This document shows, in pieces, positions 1-1,176 of a stretch of DNA of 40,094 bases. The notes beneath the pieces were generated by a model. The model was not told the DNA's origin, did not search any database, and saw nothing but the letters and a program-made list of their open reading frames with translations. The number at the start of each line of letters is the position of its first letter. Within the stretch, counting starts at the first letter, position 1. The DNA is from an uncultured Alphaproteobacteria bacterium (lineage in GTDB: Bacteria; Pseudomonadota; Alphaproteobacteria; Parvibaculales; Parvibaculaceae): the NCBI GenBank assembly GCA_903889655.1, contig CAISYL010000212.1:1-40094 (forward strand). The letters are read 5' to 3'. A program made the translations under genes and the position numbers.

Positions 1-45
1 ATCGGCGGCGGCATGGGCGCAGCCGGTCTGTTTGAATTCGCATAA
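1..45 (+). CDS. Thiolase (acetyl-CoA acyltransferase), C-terminal end only
   Basis: The window opens inside a coding sequence. The first 15 codons read IGGGMGAAGLFEFA and stop at TAA (43-45). An (I)GGGxG segment a few residues before the end is characteristic of the thiolase C-terminus, where the preceding Cys of the C-x-G motif is a catalytic residue; that Cys lies just outside the window. Thiolases cleave 3-ketoacyl-CoA or condense acetyl-CoA, which fits the lipid-degradation genes nearby. The stop codon lies in the loop of a long imperfect hairpin, and nearly the same peptide tail is encoded again about 100 bases downstream in another frame. With only 15 residues visible the family call rests on one motif. 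Confidence 0.6.
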   Translation: MGGGMGAAGLFEFA

Positions 46-146
46 GCGAATTCAAACGAACGGAAGCTGCGCCCGCACTCGATAAATGAGCTGAAATCGC
101 CGAGGCGATTTCAGCGGGCGCTGCCGGCCTCTTCGAATTCGCGTAA
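15..146 (+). repeat. Palindromic element repeating the thiolase 3' end
   Basis: Two inverted repeats follow each other. The first pairs 15-22 with 67-74 (GGGCGCAG/CTGCGCCC) and 30-41 with 46-57 (12 bp, GTTTGAATTCGC), with the thiolase stop codon at its apex. The second is a perfect 12-bp stem with a 2-base loop at 90-115 (GCTGAAATCGCC, GA, GGCGATTTCAGC). Directly after it, 117-146 encodes GAAGLFEFA and two stops, the same peptide as the thiolase tail but with different third positions and in another frame. It looks like a palindromic insertion at the gene's 3' end that supplied a new tail and pushed the old one downstream; this is inference. Confidence 0.6.
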
Positions 147-175
147 TAAAAACAAGAAACAACAACGACCAATCG

Positions 176-208
176 GGCCCGCCAGCAATGGCGGGCCTTT
201 TTCTTCTT
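176..208 (+). terminator. Rho-independent terminator of the thiolase gene
   Basis: A perfect 8-bp stem, GGCCCGCC (176-183) with GGCGGGCC (190-197), closes the loop AGCAAT and is followed by TTTTTCTTCTT. It lies about 30 bases past the second copy of the thiolase tail, the spacing expected if that copy was once the real gene end. Confidence 0.85.
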
Positions 209-318
209 ACCTCTTCCGTTGAAGGGAGAGGTTGAAACGCGGGAACCGCGTTTCGGGTGAGGGGGCTTCTTCGAAAGACGCTTTCCTGAACCCGCCTCTC
301 CGAGCGGCTTCGACGGCT

Positions 319-1176
319 TCATTCCGCCGCCACGCTCTCCGTCCGCGATAACGTCTGCACGAACGCGACGAAATCCTCCACGAACGCCTCGGGCTGTTCG
401 AGAAACGGCGCGTGCCCCGCGTCGAACGTCGTCAGCGATCCGCGCTTCATCTTTTTGATCGCGGGCAGGCAGAGACTGAGCGGGATCACGCGGTCCTTCT
501 TCGCCCAGGCGAAATGTACGGGCACATCGAGCGCCTGCGCGACCGTACGAATGTCGGCATCGGGCTGTCGGAAACTTTCCCACGCCTCGCGCAGCAGCGT
601 CGCGATTTCGGCCCCCGCGCGGATGATGCGTTCGCGCTGCGTCGCGGCGGCGGGTGAGGGCAGCACCATGCGGCGATAGTAAAAACGGAACGCCGGTCCG
701 AACCACCAGGCCCGGCGTTCTCCCGCCGCGAAGAAGCGCACAAGGGTGCCGCAGAAGCGCCGCGCCGCGAATCCCACCTCGACAAGCCCGCCCGTGTCGC
801 AGAGCACCAGTGCCCGTACCGGGCGCCGGCTCGCATGGAGGATCGCCGCCGCCCCGCCTATGGAATTGCCGATGATGATCGGTCGCTCGATCCCGAGCTT
901 GTCCAATGCGGCCGTCAGAAGTTCGCCGTAGCGCGTGGCGCCGGCGGGTCCCCTGTCGGCGCCCGAGCGGCCTTGTCCCGGCCAGTCGATGCGGACGATC
1001 TCGAAACGGTCCCCCATCGCCTCCGTGAAAACATCGAAATCGCCGCCGCCATGGCCGATCGCATGCAGGCAGACGATGACGGGGCCGCGCCCTTTCCGCG
1101 CGACCGCAAGCCGGACGCCATCGACCTCGATCGAGGGCGACCCCGCCGGAACGCCCGTTTCTTCCCTGAAGGTCAT
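319..1176 (-). CDS. Alpha/beta-hydrolase fold protein
   Basis: A 285-residue single-domain alpha/beta hydrolase. The nucleophile elbow is GNSIG with Ser105; the probable acid is Asp228 in AKKDRVIP and the base His255 in DAGHAPFLEQP. A GQGRSG segment near residue 68 is typical of this fold. There is no signal peptide, so it is cytoplasmic. The ATG is preceded by a good ribosome site (GGAGGAG in the transcribed strand). It is divergent from a TetR regulator across two operator-like palindromes, the nearer ending about 20 bases from this start, so TetR control is likely. The substrate cannot be told: esters, lactones, epoxides or C-C bonds are all possible in this family. The neighbouring MaoC gene hints at an acyl or aromatic catabolic substrate. 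Confidence 0.85.
   Translation of the reverse strand: MTFREETGVPAGSPSIEVDGVRLAVARKGRGPVIVCLHAIGHGGGDFDVFTEAMGDRFEIVRIDWPGQGRSGADRGPAGATRYGELLTAALDKLGIERPIIIGNSIGGAAAILHASRRPVRALVLCDTGGLVEVGFAARRFCGTLVRFFAAGERRAWWFGPAFRFYYRRMVLPSPAAATQRERIIRAGAEIATLLREAWESFRQPDADIRTVAQALDVPVHFAWAKKDRVIPLSLCLPAIKKMKRGSLTTFDAGHAPFLEQPEAFVEDFVAFVQTLSRTESVAAE

Follow-up and report, generated by a model that had tools for sequence, protein, structure and literature searches.

A candidate two-hairpin insertion unit recurring at the ends of thiolase genes in two alphaproteobacterial families

Why should a thiolase gene, which serves fat metabolism, be followed, about one hundred nucleotides downstream, by a second copy of its own last codons? 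The question is raised by the beginning of a 40,094-nucleotide stretch of DNA, hereafter the window, from contig C212 of an uncultured alphaproteobacterium of the family Parvibaculaceae (genome G000). There, the peptide GAAGLFEFA and its stop codon are encoded twice, in different frames (T1 and T2, Table 1). The two copies form a 31-nt direct repeat (15-45/116-146; 84% identity and a spacing of 101 in the repeat analysis of the window), and all five of their sense-codon differences lie at third positions. ORF and codon comparison therefore bear out what a first-pass annotation had described, as well as the two palindromes that it placed between the tails, which are perfect 12-nt inverted repeats at 30-41/46-57 and 90-101/104-115. 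What that annotation overlooked is that the whole of T1 is mirrored by an imperfect inverted copy, T' (minus-strand self-match over 15-74, 81%). Since T' copies all of T1, the first palindrome belongs to a long, imperfect hairpin that lies over the stop codon.

The window opens at a contig edge, inside the end of the thiolase gene. Its first 42 bases are exactly the terminal 42 bases of contig C119, which holds the remainder of the gene, and T1 is thus the working gene end. Joined, C119 and the window encode a thiolase of 400 residues with the C-terminal end GGGMGAAGLFEFA. C212 and C119 both break at the hairpin, with this overlap, so that similar palindromes may hide at contig ends of other draft genomes. 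Directly past the terminator, window 205-297 holds a palindromic repeat (CTCTTCC...GGGTGAGGGGG type) that is dispersed, with relatives, 73-81% identical, on contigs C277, C66, C245, and C101 of the same genome.

Table 1. Features at the thiolase gene end in the window.
Feature	Positions	Strand	Basis
Final sense codons of the thiolase gene, shared base for base with the 42-base end of C119	1-42	+	Contig overlap
T1, working tail GAAGLFEFA with stop TAA; 5' arm of hairpin 1	16-45	+	ORF, repeats, fold
T', an imperfect inversion of T1 that forms the 3' arm of hairpin 1	46-74	+	Repeats, self-match, fold
Core spacer	75-89	+	Aligned against 14 thiolase-end units and one core elsewhere (15 rows)
PP', second hairpin GCTGAAATCGC/GCGATTTCAGC, 11 bp	90-115	+	Inverted repeats, alignment, covariation
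T2, displaced original tail GAAGLFEFA with stop TAA, behind the stop of T1	117-146	+	ORF, codon comparison, flank comparison
Terminator-like hairpin and T run behind T2	177-202	+	Near-identical hairpin behind the single tail of G004

Which of the two tails is the original one can be asked of relatives that have a single tail. The 60 nt behind a carrier's tail were compared with the native flank of an element-free relative. Behind the last tail, identity was 0.92 for both G422/G577 and G422/G626, 0.88 for G623/G590, 0.87 for G009/G023, 0.84 for G016/G008, and 0.82 for G016/G001, vs. 0.44-0.54 behind the first tail of the same pairs. The native flank lies behind the last tail in four of the five carriers tested outside the window; the pair G495/G565 failed (0.58 behind the last tail vs. 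0.52 behind the first). Pairs made with the window itself are weaker (last vs. first tail, 0.58 vs. 0.48 with G006 and 0.67 vs. 0.47 with G004), and the terminator of G004 is nearly identical to that of the window. Because the native-like flank follows the last tail and not the first, T2 and its terminator represent the old end, whereas T1 was supplied, in agreement with the first-pass annotation, which had taken the second copy for the original end. In the 16 carriers that have two intact tails (G015 and G459 are left out for want of an intact second one), 25 of the 27 differences between first and last tail fall at third codon positions. The binomial P of about 2e-10, at one-third each, is a guide only, as the carriers are related, and six of the 27 differences come from G019, in which the last tail belongs to a second unit. 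T1 has evolved as a coding sequence does, with hardly any drift in T2. The native remnant behind the last unit has decayed in G015 and G019.

The same arrangement is found in other genomes. The genus is set by named Parvibaculum-type records: the 3' ends of L059 (Parvibaculum sedimenti), L060, and L061 are identical over 160 nt to those of G006, G004, and G007, respectively. A thiolase match was obtained in 24 of the 27 Parvibaculum genomes searched, and the unit is present at the thiolase end in five of these 24 (G000, G009, G015, G016, and G019). The other 19 are without it; hence the element-free relatives to which the first-pass annotation had looked do exist. It had also held that palindromes confined to one place in the genome would speak against an element. 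They are indeed found nowhere else in G000, but other genomes have the unit at the same site, and we therefore do not count this as a refutation.

Outside Parvibaculum, Caulobacter zeae 410 (L075, genome G422) has one unit at the same site. The PP' pattern matched 11 of 299 Caulobacteraceae genomes, nine at thiolase ends, one elsewhere (G658), and one judged to be chance (G669). When the 30 thiolase loci nearest to that of G638 were read, ten full copies were found, together with a truncated copy in G605 and a stub of hairpin 1 in G544. Four of the ten, in G557, G584, G587, and G623, had been missed by the pattern because PP' varies. Carriers thus number at least 13 of 299 (nine by pattern and four by locus reading), a lower bound since only a minority of the thiolase ends in the 255 matched genomes were read. 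Two tandem units are present in 5 of 18 full carriers (G019, G498, G557, G587, and G620). From tail to tail, 16 carriers measure 89-104 bp and G459, with its shortened second tail, 77 bp; G015 is without an intact second tail. In G498 and G667, the unit lies on a thiolase paralogue that is 68-69% identical over about 250 residues to the main thiolase of the same genome, which itself ends without a unit in both cases.

In a class-wide draw of 386 genomes, from families that are not named, the PP' pattern and a covariance model run under strict filters returned the copy in the window as the sole real one, so that others may have been missed; on reading, the element was absent from the weak matches of the model in G215 and G053. 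The same model, applied to 80 named loci, found only L075 to be real, L071, L129, L070, and L097 being without a full unit among the matches read; a separate pass covered 40 of 80 loci. A structural scan for T, T', and T2 in the collected loci and in 400 kb of G620 found thiolase-end copies, and its remaining matches look, on reading, like coding sequence or unrelated repeats. A dispersed mobile family was considered and rejected: with at most one mismatch, PP' was present in five of the 40 genomes of the family, always at thiolase ends but for one match in G019 (contig C12). Apart from tandem units, one locus per genome was found in the genomes searched, and no dispersed family.

Where do the additional tails come from? 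T1, T', and T2 mostly carry the codons of the local gene, and do so on the thiolase paralogue as well, the tails of G498 and G667 showing the codons of their host paralogue. In 17 units (that of G459 did not parse), T' matches its own T1 strictly best in ten, ties in five, and does worse in two (G015 and G422, where another T1 fits better). The tip of hairpin 1 also varies, with an NTAA loop over the stop in FEFA tails, a loop of TTCT ahead of the stop in FEIF tails, and an 11-nt apex in G667. These comparisons suggest several local events in which T' was made or remade. The local-codon pattern of the three tails, which such data establish in part, points to the possibility that fold-back copying of the target yields the tail copies; two papers report that template switching can create and homogenise hairpin arms (PMC8794818; PMC8604942). 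What is common to both genera in the alignment is the spacer and PP'. A foreign origin had been envisaged for the FEIF tail of the Parvibaculum genomes G015 and G019, and was dropped because these two group with another FEIF-bearing genus on the thiolase tree. One of the explanations offered by the first-pass annotation, an element that targets the 3' end of a gene and brings a replacement tail, hence survives in part. The unit does supply the working tail and element-free relatives exist, but the idea of a foreign tail is weakened by the mostly local codons, also on the paralogue.

We lean toward regarding the arrangement as a recurrent two-hairpin insertion unit of thiolase gene ends. In the architecture seen, the upstream part of the gene reads into T1, whose stop codon is at the tip of hairpin 1 (T1/T') or next to it; the spacer and hairpin 2 (PP') come next, and the old tail T2 with its terminator lies displaced by about 100 bp, behind the stop of T1. 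The GGCGC motif in GGCATGGGCGC would be the entry point, ahead of the nine final codons. The transferable part may be the spacer-PP' core, while fold-back (template-switch) copying of the local tail would give T' and the extra tail and could later also keep the hairpin arms alike. Recombination of T1 with T2, or of unit with unit, would produce precise loss and tandem gain. As the unit is too short to hold a recombinase gene of its own, it would move either in trans or through homologous recombination between thiolase ends.

A serious rival, which we hold to be possible rather than probable, is that a functional 3' structure has been inherited vertically and then lost. Here, a stop-codon hairpin and a second hairpin would act in RNA (or DNA) and be inherited with the gene, frequent losses would be due to T1/T2 recombination, and tandem units would be slippage products. 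The folds are indeed strong. Window 10-146 folds at -67 kcal/mol vs. -46.8 +/- 3.9 kcal/mol for 200 shuffles (z -5.1); z ranges from -4.2 to -9.7 in seven units, window included, and is -5.0 in G667, folded separately. Hairpin 1 spans the last codons and the stop, and hairpin 2 corresponds to PP'. In PP', both-sided changes at 2 of the 11 pairs make up 8 cells, a value reached in none of 500 shuffles, although two of the five covariation measures are not above shuffles (number of such pairs, 93/500; pair types, 431/500). Short stop-codon hairpins also exceed simple shuffles in unit-free loci (10 of 19 in Parvibaculum and 5 of 19 in Caulobacter; L045, from another genus, did not parse), and partial remnants, truncated in G605 and reduced to hairpin 1 in G544, fit the same explanation. 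The stop-codon hairpins of unit-free thiolase ends (L026-L049 and L193-L222) may be either a remnant or a precursor. In Rfam, window 1-400 gave four matches, all under the gathering score.

The identities also suit inheritance with the gene. Of the 78 pairs formed by 13 of the 18 carriers, window left out, just three have units more similar than their genes, so that within a genus the unit mostly travels with the gene. The best such pair is G495/G422, with 0.985 for the unit vs. 0.952 for the gene, and with differing 3' flanks. On the thiolase tree of 29 relatives (G028, which has no end-motif match, is left out; G013 is flagged for its long branch and G021 for being half empty), four changes, each forced by starred branches, are needed to account for the five Parvibaculum carriers. 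Their label is not clearly clustered, since shuffles need 4.7 changes on average and 117 of 500 are as low; G006, the sister of G000, is without the unit. In the 30 Caulobacter loci, the 11 carriers (ten full and one truncated) need seven changes, three of them forced, on a tree whose bootstrap had not settled. Because the T1/T2 direct repeats make precise loss easy, the changes on both trees may be gains, losses, or both.

Against a functional structure stand the absence of the unit from 19 of the 24 Parvibaculum relatives and 19 of the 30 Caulobacter loci, its occurrence in just two families as far as seen, with only the copy in the window among the 386 class genomes, its position on a different paralogue in G498 and G667, the sequence past the last tail, which varies among carriers, and a core-like copy outside thiolase in G658. 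It is the two families, the two paralogues, and this last core that favor recurrent insertion. The G658 piece consists of a PP' that departs from the pattern by one mismatch and a spacer resembling the one in G718, and it lies upstream of a gene that we take to be usg-like. The core replaces the 5-nt loop of a hairpin that the relatives G723 and G498 have with the loop and without the core. The core-like piece (L157, 1450-1580) is thus inside a hairpin, and it is in frame with a possible N-terminal extension of the usg-like gene. This single off-thiolase case is probably a core. The other PP' pattern matches away from thiolase (on C12 of G019, in G669 of the Caulobacteraceae, and in G411, G245, and G249 of the 386 class genomes) were judged to be chance because no GLFE[IFV] tail lies within about 200 nt and PP' is not fully palindromic.

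The recurrent insertion unit can be given a more specific form, in which a mobile palindromic core of about 42 nt enters a GGCGCC-rich, hairpin-prone gene end and copies the tail of its target in both orientations (fold-back insertion). We put this forward tentatively, as possible rather than probable. If true, the host gene would be left intact, and a selfish element would build its arms and the replacement tail from the victim's own gene end.

Two further explanations fare less well. That the arrangement is the remnant attachment site of a larger integrative element, a phage or an island that used the thiolase 3' end and supplied a replacement tail, would account for a tail replaced with mostly synonymous differences, as such elements leave. 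We consider it improbable: no large element lies between the two tails in the thiolase ends read (about 160-300 nt each), no match was found in plasmids and phages with one 98-nt unit as the query or in viral contigs with four exact patterns, and a two-hairpin interior conserved in two families is unlike the product of random deletion. Gene conversion from a paralogue, the other proposal of the first-pass annotation, or an assembly artefact, at which the contig edge at the window start and the 42-base overlap with C119 might hint, is very improbable, since at E <= 1 no further full copy of T2 was found in the genome (the sole 25-nt match, 92% identical, on C38, is unrelated on reading) and the arrangement was read in 17 other genomes, inside their loci, with the last tail decayed in G015 and shortened in G459.

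How does the unit compare with known systems? As described in PMC2229807, CerM-associated intergenic repeats (CIRs) of Caulobacter and other alphaproteobacteria measure about 110 bp and have two long inverted-repeat arms joined by a linker, so that the unit shares their size and two-arm plan. However, CIRs are abundant, intergenic, and carry GANTC, whereas the unit is confined to a single locus and overlaps a coding end. GANTC is absent from 17 of 18 unit copies, a weak test because only about 0.4 occurrences per 100 nt are expected by chance. Many intergenic copies, as in CIRs, were not seen either: in the five Parvibaculum carriers and G422, PP' with at most one mismatch is found only at thiolase ends, barring one non-palindromic match in G019. 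Rickettsia palindromic elements (RPE) and the MITE-like repeats RUP and NEMIS are, according to PMC2229807, palindromic inserts of about 100 bp, some of them within genes, and the unit resembles RPE or MITE-like sequences in this respect. Those form families with terminal repeats of their own, whereas the outer arms of the unit are copies of the target tail and its site is nearly always the thiolase end. In the genomes searched, no dispersed multicopy family like those of MITEs or RPEs was found, with one core-like copy elsewhere (G658). Occupied and empty sites in relatives, another trait of such elements, do occur, and emptiness may here be loss. The arms of the unit are copies of the host tail, and T1 and T2 resemble a 30-nt target duplication.

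According to PMC8794818 and PMC8604942, quasipalindrome template switching makes a hairpin stem in one event and homogenises its arms. Template switching alone gives no account of a spacer-PP' core shared by different genera. In titles and abstracts of the open-licence PMC literature, we did not find such an element described.

In its effect on the gene, the unit resembles e14 and phage 21 in icd, which insert at the 3' end of the gene, supply a working tail with mainly synonymous differences, and displace the old tail. The unit likewise sits at a 3' end with a supplied working tail. Tail-replacing integrative elements of this type are kilobases long and have an integrase, whereas the unit, at about 100 bp, includes the tail a further time in inverted orientation; with 77-104 bp from tail to tail, it is too short for an integrase or recombinase gene, and it has none. 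The unit is thus an unusually small kind of gene-end insert. If the insertion reading is correct, DNA of about 100 bp replaces the gene end that it breaks, as large integrative elements do, without any gene. Copying based on hairpins may then let tiny elements arise, spread, and be lost precisely, and the occupied, empty, tandem, and decayed alleles found at one locus make this process testable.
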